A DNA stretch of 64,000 bases from the NCBI GenBank assembly GCA_002753335.1, contig PEAD01000011.1:22975-86974 (forward strand), read 5' to 3'. Shown in pieces: positions 7,495-15,181 of the stretch; the first letter of the stretch is position 1, and each line of letters starts with the position of its first letter. Origin of the DNA: Nitrospirae bacterium MYbin3. Lineage in GTDB: Bacteria > Nitrospirota > Thermodesulfovibrionia > Thermodesulfovibrionales > Dissulfurispiraceae. The notes under the pieces were generated by a model, which was not told the DNA's origin, did no database searches, and saw only the letters and a program-made list of their open reading frames with translations. A program made the translations under genes and the position numbers.

Positions 7495-8655
7495 TTACGC
7501 TGCTGTCTTCTTTTTCTTTTCTGCTGCGAGTCTGTGAACTTCGACCACGTTGAAGGTGCCATCAATCGCCTGAACAGGGCACTTGGCGGTGCAGATGCCG
7601 CAGCCGATACACTTAGACTGATTGACTTCGTGCTTCTTTTTCGGCTCCCCGCTGATGGCATCCATCGGACAGACTTTTTTGCAGGACTGGCAGCCGATGC
7701 ATTTGTCTGTGATAACAGCCTTCGGCCTTGCAGGGATTAGATCAACTATCGCTTTTGTGGGGCATTTGGATACGCAGAGTCCGCAAACCCTGCATTTATC
7801 AAGGTCTATGCGCGAAAGATTTTTATCGACTTTAGGTGCGTCGAACGGGCATACCTTTACACAGATGCCGCAGGCAATACAGCCTATCTGGCAGTTCTTC
7901 TTTGTATCAACACCTTTGTCTTTTGAATGGCACGACACAAGCACCGCCTTGGATCCCGGAAGCACCTCAATAACTTTTTTCGGACAGGCTGCCTCGCACT
8001 TGCGGCAGCCTGTGCATTTAGTGATATCAACAACAGGAAGCTTATTCGCATTCATCGCTATAGCGCCGAAAGGACATACTTTTTCGCAGGTGCCATATCC
8101 CAAGCATCCATAAATGCAGGACTTGTCGCCGCCTCCGGCAAGCACCGCTGCACGGCAATCCTGCACGCCTTCATAGTTAAACCTTCTTTGCGAAAGATTA
8201 TGGCCGCCCTGACACATTATTCGTGCAAACTGTGGTTCTCTTATTTCCGCTTTTTTGCCGGTTATCAACGCAACCGCTTCGGCACCTTTCGCGCCGGCAG
8301 GAGTGCAAAGATTTGGCGCCACATCCGGATTATTCACAACAGCCTCAGCGTACTGCTCGCAGCCGGCGTATCCACAGGCTCCGCAGTGAGCGTGGGCAAG
8401 CACATCCTTCACCTGCTCGACCCTCGGGTCTATTTGAACAGAGAACCTCTTTGCCGCAAACGCAAGCCCTATCCCGAATACCGCGCCTACTCCGGCAAGA
8501 AATACGAGAGTCCATTTTACGAGAGGAACAATATCGATAGTCTCGCGCGCCTCAACACCGCCGCCAACGCCGCCAAGAGGAATCAAGAACTGGGTTAAGT
8601 CCATTCCCTGCAACAGGCCGATTATGTCTAAAATCAGCTTTTGAATCTCGTACAT
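7495..8655 (-). CDS. rnfB: Rnf complex subunit B, cluster-rich ferredoxin-like
   Basis: Membrane-anchored iron-sulfur subunit of the Rnf ferredoxin:NAD+ oxidoreductase, thought to take electrons from reduced ferredoxin. An N-terminal membrane helix lies at about residues 46-68; a 4-Cys (Fes) domain follows (C91, C94, C99, C117). Then come six 4Fe-4S motifs, starting near C180, C214, C255-C259, C288, C319 and C349, more than the two in the proteobacterial form and like the long RnfB of acetogens. 386 residues. GGAGG precedes ATG 8655. Last gene of rnfCDGEAB. Confidence 0.95.
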   Translation of the reverse strand: MYEIQKLILDIIGLLQGMDLTQFLIPLGGVGGGVEARETIDIVPLVKWTLVFLAGVGAVFGIGLAFAAKRFSVQIDPRVEQVKDVLAHAHCGACGYAGCEQYAEAVVNNPDVAPNLCTPAGAKGAEAVALITGKKAEIREPQFARIMCQGGHNLSQRRFNYEGVQDCRAAVLAGGGDKSCIYGCLGYGTCEKVCPFGAIAMNANKLPVVDITKCTGCRKCEAACPKKVIEVLPGSKAVLVSCHSKDKGVDTKKNCQIGCIACGICVKVCPFDAPKVDKNLSRIDLDKCRVCGLCVSKCPTKAIVDLIPARPKAVITDKCIGCQSCKKVCPMDAISGEPKKKHEVNQSKCIGCGICTAKCPVQAIDGTFNVVEVHRLAAEKKKKTAA

Positions 8656-8686
8656 TTAGTTAAACCTCCAAAAACGGAAGAAAGTT

Positions 8687-9280
8687 TTAAAGTGTTATCA
8701 GACCCGAAAAACCTGTAAAAGCAAGAGCTATCAACCCCGAAACGATAAACGCCATCGGCAGTCCTCTGAACGGGGCCGGAATATCCGCAAGCTCCAGTTT
8801 TTCGCGGATGCTCGCCATGATTATCAGTGCCAACGCAAATCCAATGCCGGAGCCGAGTCCAAAGGCAAGGCTCTCTATAAAATTATAATGCTCACCCGCA
8901 TTTATGAGCGGAACCGCAAGTATAATACAGTTGGTCGAGATCAGCGCAAGGTATATGCCAAGCTTGTAATAAAGGGCTGGAGCAACTTTTCTCATTATAG
9001 TGTCCGATGCCTGAACAAAAGCGGCTATAACGCCGATAAAAACAATAATCTTCAGAAAGGTTATATCCAGCGGCACCATAACAAAATTGAATATCACCCA
9101 ACTTAAGGCGGCGCTTATCATCATGACCGCGGTAAAGGTGACACTCATGCCGACAGCGGTTTCCATTTTCTTGGAAACACCGAAGAATATGCAGAGTCCA
9201 AGGAACCGGGTGAACACGAAGTTGTTTATCAGCGAGGCTGCGACTATCAGCTCAAAAAGTTTTGTAAAATCCATCGTCAT
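8687..9280 (-). CDS. rnfA: Rnf complex subunit A
   Basis: Integral membrane subunit (197 residues, about six hydrophobic segments) of the ion-pumping Rnf complex, homologous to NqrE/RnfE. The family blocks NNFVFTRFLGLC near residue 19 and NCIILAVPL in a later helix are present; the Cys residues in these segments are the ones proposed to hold an iron-sulfur centre with RnfE. It starts with ATGACGATG after GGGGG and lies between rnfE and rnfB with short gaps. Confidence 0.96.
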   Translation of the reverse strand: MTMDFTKLFELIVAASLINNFVFTRFLGLCIFFGVSKKMETAVGMSVTFTAVMMISAALSWVIFNFVMVPLDITFLKIIVFIGVIAAFVQASDTIMRKVAPALYYKLGIYLALISTNCIILAVPLINAGEHYNFIESLAFGLGSGIGFALALIIMASIREKLELADIPAPFRGLPMAFIVSGLIALAFTGFSGLITL

Positions 9281-9293
9281 TTAAGTTGCCCCC

Positions 9294-9926
9294 TTAGTGC
9301 GATGCTGTAGCGCTCTTTTTTAAATACCGGATGTCTATCCAGTTGAAAAGAGCCATCAGGATGCCGACCGCAAAGAATCCGCCTGCAGGCAAGATCATTA
9401 TAAGAAGCGGTTTTGCGTTTATAATTGCATAGCCCCAAACAGAGCCTTTGCCGATCAGCTCCCTGAAGAAGCTGATGACCGTAAGCGCAAACAGAAAGCC
9501 AAGCCCCATGCCTATGCCGTCCACCATCGAAGGCGCTATCTTGTTCTTGCTCGCAAACATCTCGGCGCGGGCAAGGATTGATGCAAAGGCAACTATAAGC
9601 TGAATATAAAGCCCCATCTGCTTGTAGATGTCCGGCACAAAAGCGGCCATTGACATGTCTGCAATAGTGACCCAACCCGAAATTACGAGCATGAATATCG
9701 GAAGCCTTACTTTAGGATGTATGAATTTTCTCAAAACCGAAATCGTTATATTGACCATAGTCTGAACAAATAAGACCGCAACACCCATAAGAACGCCGTT
9801 TTTCAGGTTATTGGTAACCGCAATGGAAGGGCACAAGCTCAGCGCAAGCTTGAATATCGTATTTTCTTTTATAATACCGTTCTTTATTAAATCGAGGTAA
9901 TTAACGGTGTCCGCTGTGTTCGCCAT
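9294..9926 (-). CDS. rnfE: Rnf complex subunit E
   Basis: Integral membrane subunit, 210 residues, paralogous to RnfA. The block KNGIIKENTIFKLALSLCPSIAVTNNLKNG near the N-terminus is typical, with the CPSIAVTN cysteine matching the conserved family Cys. I choose ATG 9926 rather than the GTG three codons upstream because AAGGAGG then lies 8 nt away; the GTG would overlap that ribosome site. Its start overlaps the end of rnfG, pointing to coupled translation. Confidence 0.94.
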   Translation of the reverse strand: MANTADTVNYLDLIKNGIIKENTIFKLALSLCPSIAVTNNLKNGVLMGVAVLFVQTMVNITISVLRKFIHPKVRLPIFMLVISGWVTIADMSMAAFVPDIYKQMGLYIQLIVAFASILARAEMFASKNKIAPSMVDGIGMGLGFLFALTVISFFRELIGKGSVWGYAIINAKPLLIMILPAGGFFAVGILMALFNWIDIRYLKKSATASH

Positions 9927-10497
9927 TGCCGGCACCTCCTTCGGTCATCTGCTTTTTCAAAAACTCCACGCCCTTCTTTACTGCATCATCGCAGACAGCG
10001 CGGCTCGAAATCGTTGCACCAGAAATAGCCTGAACAAATTCTGTGGTTTCGGTTTTAAGAACTTTTAAATGTTCAGCATCTTTGCCTTTGAACTGGTCTT
10101 TGAAGCTGTCGGCCTCTATCTCATCGCCGAGGCCGGGTGTTTCGGCATGGCTCAAAACATTTATCTTTTTGACCTTGAAATCTTTGTCAACCGCAATAAG
10201 CGTATTTATGTAGCTAGAATATCCTTTTCCGAAGGACTGAATTACATACCCGATCACCTCATCGTCTTTTTTCGCAACAAAATATTCTGCATGTTTTTCG
10301 TGTATGGTCCAATCGCCCGCCTTTTCGATCTTGTCCGCCTCGGGCACAAGTTCTTTTAATGCCGCTTCTTTTGCGATCTTTGCGTTTTGAAACATTATCG
10401 GAGAAGTCTTTGCATAAACCCCGGCAAGTATAAGCCCGCCCGCAAGGTAAACCAAAACGAGATTCAAGGTTATTTTTAAAATGTCTTTGCCGGTCAT
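9901..10497 (-). CDS. rnfG: Rnf complex subunit G (FMN-binding)
   Basis: Single-span membrane protein (N-terminal hydrophobic helix at about residues 8-26) with a periplasmic FMN-binding domain. The covalent FMN attachment motif SGATIS near residue 160 carries the Thr that accepts FMN. 198 residues. It overlaps rnfD at its start (ATGA-type junction at 10494-10497) and rnfE at its end, in the order C-D-G-E-A-B. Confidence 0.95.
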   Translation of the reverse strand: MTGKDILKITLNLVLVYLAGGLILAGVYAKTSPIMFQNAKIAKEAALKELVPEADKIEKAGDWTIHEKHAEYFVAKKDDEVIGYVIQSFGKGYSSYINTLIAVDKDFKVKKINVLSHAETPGLGDEIEADSFKDQFKGKDAEHLKVLKTETTEFVQAISGATISSRAVCDDAVKKGVEFLKKQMTEGGAGNGEHSGHR

Positions 10498-11504
10498 TTC
10501 TTAACCTCTTTCTTGGCGCCGAAAACCTTAGTTTTAAAACCCCTGTCGATCAGCGGCGAGAAGCAGTTCATTATAAGAATCGCGAACATCACGCCTTCAG
10601 GATATCCGCCTTTCAGTCTTATAAGCATCGTCAGAAAACCGCAGCCCGCACCAAAAAGGATTTGTCCGGCTTTAACCGACGGACAGGTGACATAATCTGT
10701 CGCCATAAAGAATGCTCCCAAAAGCATACCGCCGCTCAGAAGATGCACTATCGGGTCGCCCGCAAAAAAAGCGCCTTTTGCTCCAAAGGCCCAAGCCATA
10801 AGACCGGCTGTTCCCAAAAACGAAACCGGTATGTGCCATGTAATATATCCGCGGTAAAAAAGAAATGCTGCGCCCAAAAGCAAAGCTATCGCGGATGTTT
10901 CACCGATAGAGCCTGCCCTGTGGCCCGAAAGCAGCTGTAGATATAAATTCGAGTTGTCGCCGAACATTTCTAAAAGCTTTGCAACCCCTTCTTCCTTCAG
11001 AATTCCGAGCGGGGTAGCTGTGGTCTTTGCATCGAGTTTTATGAATGCGGCTGTAGGCTCCGCCCAGATGGTCATTAGCTTAGGAAATGATATTAAAAGA
11101 AACGCCCTGCCTATCAGTGCGGGGTTGAAAACATTGTATCCTAGTCCGCCAAAAAGCTGTTTTGTAATTACGACCGCAACGACAGAGCCGACTATCGGTA
11201 TATAAAAAGGAACAGTGGGCGGCAGGTTTAATCCCAAAAGCAGTCCGGTCAAAAACGCGCTGCCGTCATTAACTGTAATTTTTCTATCGGTCCCTTTTTG
11301 ATATAAAAATTCTGAAAGAATCGAGGCGATTATACAGAGCGCAACATTTAAAACAGCCTTAGGACCGAAAAAGTATGCGCCCATAACCGTTGCAGGCAAA
11401 AGAGAAGCTGATACGCTCCACATAATCCGGCTTGTGGTCTCTTCACTCCGCACATGCGGGCTTACAGAAAGAGTCAACTGGTGGTCTTTTTTCAATTTCT
11501 CCAT
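10494..11504 (-). CDS. rnfD: Rnf complex subunit D
   Basis: Multi-spanning membrane subunit homologous to NqrB. Family blocks DGSAFLTGLLLGLNLPP, GRAFLLISFP and GGMLLGAFFMATDYVTCP are seen. The Thr of IGETSA is the likely covalent FMN site. The C-terminus has GGYPEGVMFAILIMN, typical of RnfD. I pick ATG 11504 (336 residues) with GGAG 5 nt upstream; an in-frame upstream start at 11540 would overlap rnfC. Confidence 0.95.
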   Translation of the reverse strand: MEKLKKDHQLTLSVSPHVRSEETTSRIMWSVSASLLPATVMGAYFFGPKAVLNVALCIIASILSEFLYQKGTDRKITVNDGSAFLTGLLLGLNLPPTVPFYIPIVGSVVAVVITKQLFGGLGYNVFNPALIGRAFLLISFPKLMTIWAEPTAAFIKLDAKTTATPLGILKEEGVAKLLEMFGDNSNLYLQLLSGHRAGSIGETSAIALLLGAAFLFYRGYITWHIPVSFLGTAGLMAWAFGAKGAFFAGDPIVHLLSGGMLLGAFFMATDYVTCPSVKAGQILFGAGCGFLTMLIRLKGGYPEGVMFAILIMNCFSPLIDRGFKTKVFGAKKEVKK

Positions 11505-11514
11505 CAATGCTCCG

Positions 11515-12822
11515 TTAGGGTTTAACCATTGTTTTTGCAAGTCTCACAAACTGTACTATCGGCCTTTTGGATGGACAGACAAAGGTGCATGAGCCGCACT
11601 CAAAGCAGTCAAAAAGATTATATGCCTTTGCATCTTCATAAAAGCCTTTTTCTGAATAAACGCTCAGCATCGAAGGTATCAGGCCCATAGGGCATGCGTC
11701 AATACATCTGCCGCAACGAATGCAGGGGCCGAACTCATCGAGGTGAAAGGCCTCTGATTCAGGAAGCACCAGCACACCCGAAGTTCCTTTGGTAACCGGC
11801 GTTTCTGTCGAATAAACAGCAAAGCCCATCATCGGGCCGCCCGATATCACCTTTGCTGCTTCGGAGCTATATCCGCCGCAATCTTCTATGAGTTCAGAAA
11901 CGAGAGTTCCGATTTTTACAAGAAGGTTCCTTGGCTCTTTAATGCCCTCTCCTGTAACCGTAACAACCCGCTCAACAAGCGGCTTTCCATACCTTGCGGC
12001 TTCATATACCGCAATTGCGGTGCCTATATTCTGCACCACAACGCCCACATCCATCGGAAGAGCCCTCGGAGGAACCTCACGGTCAGCGCAGGCCTTTATC
12101 AGCATTTTTTCTGCTCCTTGAGGATATTTGACCTCAAGTGCGCAGACCTGAATATTCTGTTCTCCTGAAACAGCATTTTTCATTATCTCTATAGCGTCAG
12201 GCTTGTTGTTCTCTATGCCGATAAATCCTTTATTAACACCAATAATCTTCATCAAAACCTTCAGGCCTTCGATTATATCCTTAGGCCTTTCTATCATTAA
12301 CCGGTAATCTGCGGTTAGATACGGCTCACACTCCGCACCGTTTATTATGACCACATCAATAGGCTTTTCCTTTGGCGGCGAGAGTTTGACATGCGCAGGA
12401 AATGCTGCCCCCCCCATGCCTACAATTCCGGCATCTTTAACCTTTGTTTTGAGTTCGTCGGGAGAGAGGTTCATATAATCCGAGTTGTCTTTCAATGCAG
12501 TCCATTCGTCTGTTCCGGAGTTTTCGATAACCACAGAGGGTACTAAGCGGCCTGTTGCAACAGGGAAATCGGCAATAGCGACAACCTTGCCCGAAACAGA
12601 AGAATGCACAGGCGACGAAACAAAGCCTTCGGGCGTGCCCACCACCTCGCCCCTTTTCACTTCCTGCCCTATGCTAACCGCAAGCTTGCAGGGCGCACCG
12701 ATATGCTGGGATAAAGGAATGACAACCCTTTTAGGAGAACGGGCAGGGGTTATCTCTTTGCCTTTTGAAAGCTCTTTTTTATCAGGAGGATGTATTCCCC
12801 CCTTAAATGTTGCCAAAGCCAT
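11515..12822 (-). CDS. rnfC: Rnf complex subunit C (NADH/flavin and Fe-S)
   Basis: Peripheral cytoplasmic subunit that carries the NAD(H) and FMN site of Rnf. Order: N-terminal barrel-sandwich domain (FKGGIHPPDKK), NuoF-like FMN/NAD region (GMGGAAFPAHVKL, INGAECEPYLTAD), SLBB-like part, then two 4Fe-4S motifs CIRCGRCIDACP and CFECGSCTFVCP near the C-terminus. 435 residues. ATG 12822 is preceded by GGAGGAG. First gene of the operon, with a -35/-10 promoter 49-77 bases upstream. Confidence 0.96.
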   Translation of the reverse strand: MALATFKGGIHPPDKKELSKGKEITPARSPKRVVIPLSQHIGAPCKLAVSIGQEVKRGEVVGTPEGFVSSPVHSSVSGKVVAIADFPVATGRLVPSVVIENSGTDEWTALKDNSDYMNLSPDELKTKVKDAGIVGMGGAAFPAHVKLSPPKEKPIDVVIINGAECEPYLTADYRLMIERPKDIIEGLKVLMKIIGVNKGFIGIENNKPDAIEIMKNAVSGEQNIQVCALEVKYPQGAEKMLIKACADREVPPRALPMDVGVVVQNIGTAIAVYEAARYGKPLVERVVTVTGEGIKEPRNLLVKIGTLVSELIEDCGGYSSEAAKVISGGPMMGFAVYSTETPVTKGTSGVLVLPESEAFHLDEFGPCIRCGRCIDACPMGLIPSMLSVYSEKGFYEDAKAYNLFDCFECGSCTFVCPSKRPIVQFVRLAKTMVKP

Positions 12823-12943: not shown

Positions 12944-13459
12944 TCAAAGCTTGGCCAATGCTTTTTTTATCAGTTTATCTTTTTTAGAGGGTTGGTAAGC
13001 GCTGCCTTTATAATCGGGTAGGCATTCATCATCTTCGTCTTTAAAATATCGGGGGGAATTTTCTGCAGTCTTATCAGACAAATCTTTTTTCACTATACCC
13101 AAAACTCTTTCATAAAATTTTTCTGAAGATACAGGAATCGAATTAACATGCCATGCATGATTTGCTATATCCCGGTCCGAACTGACCACAATCCACTCTT
13201 TTCTCTGCGCCGATACAATGCGCTTTATCACATCGTCTGCGCGCTCGCCGAGCTTTGAATATATTATTTTTACGCCGCCTCTTGCCGAGACATTTTCTGC
13301 CGCAGCCCCGCTTTTGTGGCCGTCAAAAACTACGGTTATATCATGGCTTCTTTTCAGTTTGTATTCTATAAGAATTTCTATAAGACCGTGCCGTGCCTTT
13401 TCCATGTCTCTGTGAAAAATGCCGATGACATTGTAGCCGTCTATAATTATAGGCGCGAT
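12944..13459 (-). CDS. YacP-type NYN-domain RNase, apparent AUC start
   Basis: NYN/PIN-like nuclease of the YacP (Rae1) family; the B. subtilis member cuts mRNA on the ribosome. Conserved acidic residues of the fold are seen in IIIDGYN (D7, N10), VVFDGH (D46), GERADDVIK and SSDRD. The first ATG at 13405 would delete the essential IIIDGYNVIG strand. The frame is open upstream with no ATG, GTG or TTG before a stop at about 13516. The codon exactly at the family's usual N-terminus is ATC (13459-13457), 7 nt after GGAGG. I therefore annotate an AUC start (171 residues). It is 22 bases downstream of the dual-CXXC gene, probably coupled to it. Confidence 0.8.
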   Translation of the reverse strand: MAPIIIDGYNVIGIFHRDMEKARHGLIEILIEYKLKRSHDITVVFDGHKSGAAAENVSARGGVKIIYSKLGERADDVIKRIVSAQRKEWIVVSSDRDIANHAWHVNSIPVSSEKFYERVLGIVKKDLSDKTAENSPRYFKDEDDECLPDYKGSAYQPSKKDKLIKKALAKL

Positions 13460-13481
13460 GTTAGAGCCTCCTGCGACATTT

Positions 13482-13652
13482 TCATGCCCTATTGCATGGC
13501 CTTGCCGCTATACGGTTCCATGTAATTTCGTCTATCTCCTCAAGGCAATCAGAAATCCTGAATTCTCTGCCGCATGCCACGCACCGGAAGAAAACGGTCT
13601 TTCAGGTTGACGCTAAATCGAGTCTTGCCCCGCAAATCCTGCATTTCATCAT
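13482..13652 (-). CDS. Small dual-CXXC protein with in-frame TGA (candidate selenoprotein)
   Basis: 56 codons on the minus strand if the TGA at 13604-13602 (codon 17) is read through. Before it: a CxxC (C4, C7) in MMKCRICGARLDL. After it in the same frame: FRCVACGREFRIS with a second CxxC (C24, C27), then an acidic LEEIDEIT helix and a TGA stop at 13484-13482. This matches my memory of a family of dual-CXXC small proteins in anaerobes whose members have Cys or Sec seven residues before the third zinc Cys, exactly the TGA position. A SECIS-like hairpin follows the TGA. A second ATG at 13649 is an alternative start. The YacP gene follows. A nonsense mutation is the alternative. Confidence 0.68.
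13570..13587 (-). promoter_or_regulatory. Candidate bacterial SECIS hairpin
   Basis: On the RNA, CCGGUGC-GUG-GCAUGCGG folds into seven base pairs with one bulged G and a 3-nt loop starting with G. The loop begins 21 nt after the in-frame UGA, inside the spacing usually given for bacterial SECIS elements (about 16-37 nt, with a G in the first two loop positions). The fold is by eye only. Confidence 0.45.
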
Positions 13653-13698
13653 AATAAATACTCTGGCAAAAACATAATTTTTACTATACCATACAGCG

Positions 13699-14217
13699 GT
13701 GGAGCTGCTGAATCTGTTGAACAAGAACCTCTCATTCAAAAATAAGGCGAATTGGGATAAAACGCTTTTGCTTCTTGAAAATGCGTTTAAAGCCCCCGAA
13801 ATGCTCAGGCTTAAAGGAGTTGCGCTATCATTGGTTGAAGCTGTACGTCTAATGGACGGCTTTATACAGGAAAACAGCGCGCAAGTCTGCCCCGACTGCG
13901 TCAAGGTTTGCTGCAAAAACACCCACTCTTATTACGACCACGAAGACCTTATTTTTATCTATTCTTTGGGCAGAAAAGCACCTGAGTATGCACCCGAAAT
14001 CGATGATGAAGATGCCTGTCAGTTCATTTCCGAAAAAGGATGCACAATCGAAAGAGCGTTCAGGCCGTTCAGGTGCAACTGGTATTTTTGTGATCCTCTA
14101 ATCAAGCATATGGAAGAGGGGCCTCAAAAAGCTTACCGAAAATTTATCGCGATATTTCACGATGCGATAGACTTAAGGCGCAGGCTTGTCGAGGATTTTT
14201 TTATGCTTCAAAAATAG
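13699..14217 (+). CDS. Cysteine-rich (YkgJ-like) putative metal-binding protein
   Basis: 172 residues with no signal peptide. Cysteines cluster as CPDCVKVCC (about residues 64-72) and, later, C(Q)FISEKGCTIERAFRPFRCNWYFC, the general CxxC...CC / C...RPxxC pattern of the YkgJ family of iron/zinc-chelating proteins. The function is unknown. It starts at GTG 13699; TACTAT at 13682-13687 could be a -10, leaving only a few bases of leader and no ribosome site. Divergent from the candidate selenoprotein gene, sharing a 46-bp promoter region. Confidence 0.65.
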   Translation: MELLNLLNKNLSFKNKANWDKTLLLLENAFKAPEMLRLKGVALSLVEAVRLMDGFIQENSAQVCPDCVKVCCKNTHSYYDHEDLIFIYSLGRKAPEYAPEIDDEDACQFISEKGCTIERAFRPFRCNWYFCDPLIKHMEEGPQKAYRKFIAIFHDAIDLRRRLVEDFFMLQK

Positions 14218-14281
14218 AGTTGAAGCTTTAGCCTGTTGCTGTGGTATTATTATCGAATAAAACGCCTAAGGAGAGAGAACC

Positions 14282-15181
14282 ATGCTTAATGATGAGCAAC
14301 TTTACAGGCACCTTCTTGATGAGATGCATGACGGCATCTACATTGTTGATAAAGATAAAAACATAACCTACTGGAACAAGTCGGCCGAGAGGCTGACCGG
14401 CTACAAAGCTACCGATACAATAGGTTCGCACTGTTCAGGCGATATATTAATGCATTGCGACAAAGGCGGCGCCACCCTCTGCAAAAAGTTCTGTCCCGTA
14501 AACGAATCTATAACAAACGGCAAAAGATTTGAAGCTGAGGTCTATCTACAACACAGGGAAGGCCACAGGGTTCCTGTGCTTATGTGCATATCCCCGCTCA
14601 TCGATAAAGAGGGCAAAATTACCGGTGCGGTCGAAATATTCAGCGACCACTCTTGGAGCGTTGCGGCGGTTGACAGAATAGAAGAGCTTCGCAAAATAGC
14701 GCTTCTGGACGCCCTTACTGAAGTCGCAAACAGACGGTTCATAGAGATAAGCATCTCGAATCTTTTATCCGGCATGAAGCGTTATAACTTCCCGTTCGGC
14801 TTGCTTTTCGTAGATGTTGATCATTTCAAAAAAATTAATGACACTTACGGACATGAAATTGGGGACAGGATTTTAAAGATAATAGCAAAATCATTAAGCA
14901 GTACTTTAAGGCCTCTTGATGTAATCGGCCGGTGGGGCGGAGAGGAATTCGTGGTTTTGCTTCTTCATGCTACACACGAAAATCTGACCGCAGTAGCAAC
15001 CCGTTTGCGCCTGCTCGTTGAAAATTCTTTCCTCAACACAGAAAATGGCGTAATACGCACAACCGTTTCTATTGGCGGCACCGTTGCAACCGCTGATGAC
15101 ACTATAGAAACAGTAATCAAGCGTGCAGATGAGCTTATGTACCAGAGCAAACAAAAAGGCAGGAACTGTGTAACTATTTAG
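14282..15181 (+). CDS. PAS-GGDEF diguanylate cyclase
   Basis: Soluble signalling enzyme that should make cyclic di-GMP from GTP. A PAS domain covers about residues 8-125, with four Cys (51, 59, 67, 71) in the variable region and the block HREGHRVPVL. A GGDEF domain follows, about 140-298: DALTEVANRR, VDVDHFKKIND, and active site GGEEF at 219-223. An inhibitory I-site RPLD (210-213) lies five residues before it, so product feedback is likely. There are no membrane segments. AAGGAGAG precedes ATG 14282. Its last 8 bases overlap the end of the convergent lpxK. Confidence 0.93.
   Translation: MLNDEQLYRHLLDEMHDGIYIVDKDKNITYWNKSAERLTGYKATDTIGSHCSGDILMHCDKGGATLCKKFCPVNESITNGKRFEAEVYLQHREGHRVPVLMCISPLIDKEGKITGAVEIFSDHSWSVAAVDRIEELRKIALLDALTEVANRRFIEISISNLLSGMKRYNFPFGLLFVDVDHFKKINDTYGHEIGDRILKIIAKSLSSTLRPLDVIGRWGGEEFVVLLLHATHENLTAVATRLRLLVENSFLNTENGVIRTTVSIGGTVATADDTIETVIKRADELMYQSKQKGRNCVTI

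Follow-up and report, generated by a model that had tools for sequence, protein, structure and literature searches.

A small dual-CxxC gene with a predicted selenocysteine codon in a Nitrospirota genome: an additional member of family NF041197

The 64,000-nucleotide stretch of contig PEAD01000011.1 of Nitrospirae bacterium MYbin3 analyzed here (the window in what follows, with positions counted from its first letter) carries on its minus strand, at 13482..13652, a gene of 56 residues with an in-frame TGA at codon 17 that is predicted to encode selenocysteine (Sec). The gene is likely real and of a kind already known: judged from its sequence, it is an additional, usually unannotated member, from a Thermodesulfovibrionales-like lineage, of an already named and published selenoprotein family, the NCBIfam entry NF041197 (“dual CXXC motif small (seleno)protein”). 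The reading that we favor, with a probability of roughly 0.85 for the whole, is that of an NF041197 gene in which UGA17 is decoded as Sec, placing a reactive selenol on the turn between the CxxC knuckles of a zinc-ribbon-like protein. Within this reading, the incorporation of Sec at codon 17 is predicted with near certainty from the comparative evidence.

The frame runs from an ATG at 13652 to a TGA stop at 13484-13482 and, with its internal TGA written as U, translates to MMKCRICGARLDLASTUKTVFFRCVACGREFRISDCLEEIDEITWNRIAARPCNRA. A preliminary description of this DNA, made from its letters alone, had pointed to two CxxC motifs (C4/C7 and C24/C27) on either side of the TGA, to the seven residues separating that TGA from C24, and to a stop directly ahead of the next gene's ribosome site; all of these are present in the sequence, the stop being followed by AGGAGG ahead of the next gene. 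On the minus strand the first CxxC is encoded at 13632..13643, the predicted Sec at 13602..13604, the second CxxC at 13572..13583, and a further C-terminal cysteine (C53), mostly but not always conserved in the family, at 13494..13496. The description had also mentioned small dual-CXXC (seleno)proteins, and such a family is both in print and matched here: with the TGA read as Cys or Sec, the window protein scores 49.1 bits against the NF041197 cut-off of 40 (E 4.6e-13), with residues 4-55 aligned to profile positions 1-52 of 53, and it combines this score with two CxxC motifs and a TGA at the conserved Sec/Cys column between them. The E-value, taken with the presence of a TGA in the same frame in 144 of 150 family members, places the frame as a whole far beyond chance. 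When the entire genome is scanned with the profile and the stop is read through, the window gene (40.4 bits) is its single NF041197 gene. With the window protein as its only query, a protein search gave no matches, and an Rfam search of 13000-14300 returned two matches only, both far under their gathering scores.

The TGA column and the selenocysteine machinery

The family was surveyed in a sample of 395 genomes of the window's phylum, where a genome was counted as family-positive if it held an NF041197 match at E 0.001 or better. Such matches occur in 152 of the 395 genomes, and in 139 of these they lie above the cut-off. We extracted 150 places from 149 genomes, the window included, leaving out the weak-scoring matches of G006, G016 and G259 and the second matches of G079, G293 and G371; G291 contributes two look-alike places, perhaps a single gene caught at two contig ends. 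Members were called with a profile in which Sec is written as Cys, and every one of the 150 places gave one member. Read from DNA, the codon-17 column holds TGA in 144 members and a Cys codon in 6, with no third state, which is the outcome that the proposed alignment check needed in order for a Sec assignment to stand.

All 150 members have both cysteines of the second CxxC; those of the first occur in 147 and 149 of them. The first Cys is unplaced in three members, one truncated by a contig end and two with a shifted first Cys. The cysteines of the first motif do not vary in the 86 rows of alignment A1, a set that had been cleared of sequences in which the first Cys was lacking or displaced. 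Two members of one genus, L193 and L195, have CxxxxC in place of the first CxxC and keep the TGA. Of the 150 members, 149 terminate directly past column 53 of the alignment, and the stop codon is TGA in 60, TAA in 60 and TAG in 30 of the 150. The residue at the place of C53 is Cys in 124, Ser in 16, Ala in 9 and Arg in one. A strict pairing of Sec with C53 was tested and rejected, the residue there being S, A or R in 23 of the 144 Sec forms, with a Cys in 3 of the 6 Cys forms.

A separate scan of named genome contigs, made with a pattern from a 10-row alignment and with many contigs overlapping the extracted set, gave 56 loci, of which 51 are titled Nitrospirae, Nitrospirota, Nitrospira, Nitrospirales, Nitrospiraceae, Thermodesulfovibrio or Thermodesulfovibrionales and 5 name no such group. 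The site codon is TGA in 55 of them and Cys in one (L246). The TGA form also stands in L241 and L247, titled Nitrospira sp. and Nitrospirales bacterium, and the family thus seems not to be confined to the Thermodesulfovibrionales-like group.

The suspicion that gene callers split or miss this gene is borne out when the profile is run against 5.8 billion predicted proteins. This search finds relatives only if they share short exact words and is limited in sensitivity to that extent; it gave 6 matches, three with a tryptophan at the site (P0002-P0004) and three that begin past it (P0005-P0007). The first three would suit a lineage in which TGA is read as tryptophan. P0003, however, hardly differs from the gene of L153, which has TGA at the site, so that we read its W as the artefact of a gene caller with a TGA=Trp table, and judged from the protein sequences the W of all three looks like such an artefact. 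The six non-TGA members read from DNA carry Cys and not Trp, and the codon terminates the very same gene in 60 of the 150 members, so that TGA must be read two ways by position; we regard a tryptophan reading as having a negligible probability. The other three proteins resemble restarted pieces, as would be expected if the TGA were a true stop that leaves a 16-residue peptide, possibly with a second, restarted short peptide, or if the gene were decayed. Both flanks of the TGA are conserved together in the 150 members, however, up to the common stop past column 53, and decay would not preserve one TGA in 144 members with no third state in the column. A true stop is also difficult to reconcile with the distribution of SelA, which tracks the family, and we consider it very improbable, if slightly less so than tryptophan.

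The machinery whose absence would have spoken against Sec is present in the window's genome: SelA, SelB and SelD each give one match over the cut-off, and one tRNA-Sec exceeds the gathering score and is also called by ARAGORN, with anticodon tca. The selD match of this genome (L049, 1501-2424) itself holds one in-frame TGA, which makes SelD likely a selenoprotein too. Across the sample, 142 of 152 family-positive genomes have SelA, against 35 of 243 family-negative ones (Fisher p 8e-60, phylogeny not corrected). The 10 family-positive genomes without SelA comprise two with Cys forms (G188 and G241) and eight draft genomes with TGA forms. In the remaining Cys-form genomes, SelA is present in G166, G235 and G337, and G243 has weak matches only (best E 3.4e-18). 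Taken together, the family match, the machinery, the TGA/Cys column and a family-wide hairpin signal at synonymous sites support the earlier proposal that the TGA probably encodes Sec.

The candidate SECIS hairpin

Bacterial selenocysteine insertion sequences (bSECIS) are described, in the available part of a 2026 review, by a loop of 3-9 nt with a G among its first two bases, an upper stem of 4-16 bp, a loop position 16-37 nt after the UGA and a minimum free energy (MFE) of at most -7.5 (PMC13188914). The candidate hairpin of the window lies on the minus strand at 13570..13587, where the codons of the second CxxC double as hairpin bases. The preliminary description had given it as seven base pairs closing a GUG loop 21 nt after the TGA; the loop (13580-13578) and its distance are found in the predicted minimum-energy fold, but the stem is not unbroken and consists of 4 bp, a one-base bulge and 3 bp. 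In this form the hairpin fits the published rules, with an MFE of -12.2 kcal/mol when 43 nt are folded and of -7.9 for 27 nt, but the 17-nt core by itself reaches only -3.1.

Taken by itself, however, the window hairpin is at chance level, and this weighs against Sec and on the side of a true stop. Over 43 nt its z is -0.93, with 35 of 200 shuffles equally stable; over 27 nt z is -0.52, with 57 of 200 equally stable; the 17-nt core is not significantly better than shuffles either; and under a synonymous null, in which shuffles leave the protein unchanged and draw on local codon usage, z is -1.50 with 8% equally stable.

The family gives a clearer signal. The same synonymous null was applied to 117 Sec forms among 122 members less than 85% identical, and the mean folding z is -1.99 for columns 18-27 (117 Sec forms), a range picked after the hairpin had been seen, and +0.08 for columns 1-13 (116 forms); it is -1.30 for columns 15-31, -0.41 for 32-48 and -0.48 for 36-50. 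Of the 117 Sec forms, 107 have a hairpin of 4 bp or more, 14-37 nt past the TGA, whose first or second loop base is G; among synonymous shuffles the share is 51%. TGC is preferred over TGT at the two cysteines of the second CxxC (106/117 and 111/117 Sec forms), TGC stands at those of the first in 72/115 and 60/116, and column 20 is CGC in 72/117 and CGG in 2/117. The window deviates from the family in having the CGG codon at column 20 and in its GUG loop, which precedes the position of the usual GGA loop by two bases. The Cys forms also lean to negative z (4 of 5 tested) and keep 5-6 of the 6 core pairs. Synonymous codons in the family as a whole favor a hairpin at the bacterial SECIS position, and the case for a SECIS element rests on the family and not on the window hairpin alone.

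Predicted fold and neighboring genes

An AlphaFold2 model of the protein (86 rows, Cys at position 17) has a predicted local distance difference test score (pLDDT) of 80 and a predicted template modeling score (pTM) of 0.54. In it, two strands (residues 10-15 and 20-24) are joined by a turn that holds residue 17, and a helix spans 42-49. When the model is compared with PDB structures, the zinc ribbons of RPB9/C11, topoisomerase I and the Thermus protein ZifS are among the best matches, all of them weak. A metal-binding ribbon is what we would predict as probable. An alternative is that the protein is a selenoprotein in which the four cysteines form an iron-rubredoxin-like or a disulfide redox center with the Sec in place of a structural zinc site. 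Rubredoxins have CxxCG-like knuckles, as do both motifs here, and electron-transfer genes of the Rnf type lie further along the window. On the other side, the structure matches listed are mainly zinc-ribbon chains, although weak ones, and a family outside that list may fit as well; Rnf genes are not among the recurring neighbor clusters (Cys-cluster, NYN and others); no rubredoxin was noticed among the structure matches listed for the model, which excludes nothing. We hold this alternative to be rather unlikely.

The mechanism that we propose for the predicted zinc-ribbon-like Sec protein builds on what is shown: a frame that matches the family, a TGA column conserved among its members, and a genome with selA, selB, selD and tRNA-Sec. 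The hairpin 21 nt downstream would then recruit SelB with Sec-tRNA and the ribosome would read through the TGA, a step with strong comparative support. Both CxxC pairs are predicted to bind one metal, with Sec17 held in the turn between the two strands. As a guess, the selenol might carry out redox chemistry or electron transfer on a partner, perhaps a Cys-cluster protein encoded nearby, and C53 might act as a resolving thiol, at most an optional one since the residue is Cys in only 124 of the members. Redox action on a Cys-cluster partner is a tentative proposal that we consider possible but not probable. It is a longer shot, and one less likely than the rubredoxin-like alternative, that NF041197 is a dedicated selenol-tipped zinc ribbon, whose knuckles would hold a beta hairpin with Sec presented at the tip and whose Nitrospirota partners would be the two adjacent-encoded Cys-cluster families (one of them unnamed), the whole forming a small selenium-dependent module for handling metals or electrons with its own genomic signature.

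The neighbors were surveyed within at most 4 kb to each side of the gene at the 150 loci. One or both Cys-cluster gene families occur at 45 of them, mostly adjoining the selenoprotein gene. The divergent family (CxxCx3CC ... C ... GC ... RPxRCxxxxC), present at 32 of 150 loci including the window (13699..14217, plus strand), is unnamed, and neither Pfam nor NCBIfam gives a match up to E 1 for its window copy. Its model is confidently folded (pLDDT 90.2), and a Foldseek comparison with the PDB gave two matches, at E 4.7 and 8.0, neither of them meaningful. Of 121 genomes sampled from the order, 88 have this family, and at least 7 of these 88 are without an NF041197 match; the divergent neighbor does not strictly follow the selenoprotein. 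The downstream Cys-cluster family, at 21 of 150 loci, comes close to PF03692 (CxxCxxCC), with two members scoring 22.6 and 21.2 against a cut-off of 23. The two families are not shown to be related by hhalign (probability 10.5%, E 0.003, 46 columns).

Downstream in the window is a YacP-like NYN gene (12944..13459, minus strand; PF05991, 89.6 bits with a cut-off of 24.6), whose cluster stands near 25 of the 150 loci. Directly past it lies an rnfCDGEAB-type cluster (7495-12822, minus strand) of six frames, the best NCBIfam match of each being an Rnf/Rsx subunit; RnfA, at 225.3, narrowly misses its cut-off of 229.3. These Rnf genes are taken as a local neighbor only.

The start of the NYN gene deserves separate mention. 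From the upstream stop to the IIIDGYN motif the window copy has no ATG, GTG or TTG, and its apparent start is the ATC at 13459-13457, preceded by the AGGAGG that follows the selenoprotein gene. In a set of 53 distinct YacP genes from these loci, the third codon ahead of the motif is ATT in 24, ATC in 8, ATA in 6, ATG in 6, GTG in 2, TTG in one and another codon in 6. This puts ATT, ATC or ATA there in 38 of 53 (e.g., the window, L082, L088, L161, L262 and L270), including 23 of the 24 genes whose open stretch offers no standard start at all. For some of the remaining 15 ATT/ATC/ATA genes, a standard codon nearby would also be a plausible start (L092, L144). The YacP-type NYN nuclease seems, from its sequences, often to start on AUU, AUC or AUA, which is possibly more novel than the selenoprotein finding. 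We take YacP to be Rae1, the ribosome-dependent nuclease of Bacillus. A literature search on YacP, AUU and start codon found no paper. A known precedent, in the available text of PMC13009471, is the AUU start of infC and pcnB. The YacP pattern is similar and could connect a ribosome-linked nuclease with the fidelity of initiation.

Comparison with published selenoproteins

NF041197 is entered twice in the table of the 2026 review, as OS_HP3 and as hypothetical protein DW (PMC13188914). OS_HP3 is traced to the Delta 1 symbiont of Olavius algarvensis (Zhang and Gladyshev, 2007, cited in PMC13188914), and DW is described from Desulfosarcina in the paper on the deep-Sep program, with Sec and Cys forms both known; the authors of that program state that it missed one OS_HP3 gene, and the string 'Nitrospir' is absent from the main text of that paper (PMC12013277).

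A family in print from the Olavius symbiont and Desulfosarcina is now seen to be common in the window's phylum, nearly always as a Sec-coding gene, and to be hardly represented in a very large collection of predicted proteins. The present analysis contributes Cys forms seen at the DNA level, evidence for a SECIS from synonymous sites, recurring neighbors and a hypothesis of the fold, with which the function becomes testable, while the understanding of selenocysteine itself would stay unchanged.

The window gene differs from both published entries in the residues beside the Sec. The flank given in the review is RxU for OS_HP3 and GxU for DW (PMC13188914), whereas the window has STUK, with S at position -2, and the commonest flank among the members is GU[RK]; R stands at -2 in none of the 150 members and G in one. 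The window gene is placed here in neither the OS_HP3 nor the DW subfamily, with the notation taken as written in a table that comes without an alignment. What the window gene shares with OS_HP3, compared through the profile and not through the OS_HP3 sequence, is the two CxxC motifs, the Sec/Cys site between them and the NCBIfam accession, and with DW it shares the same accession in the review table (PMC13188914) and a family that comes in both Sec and Cys forms (PMC12013277).
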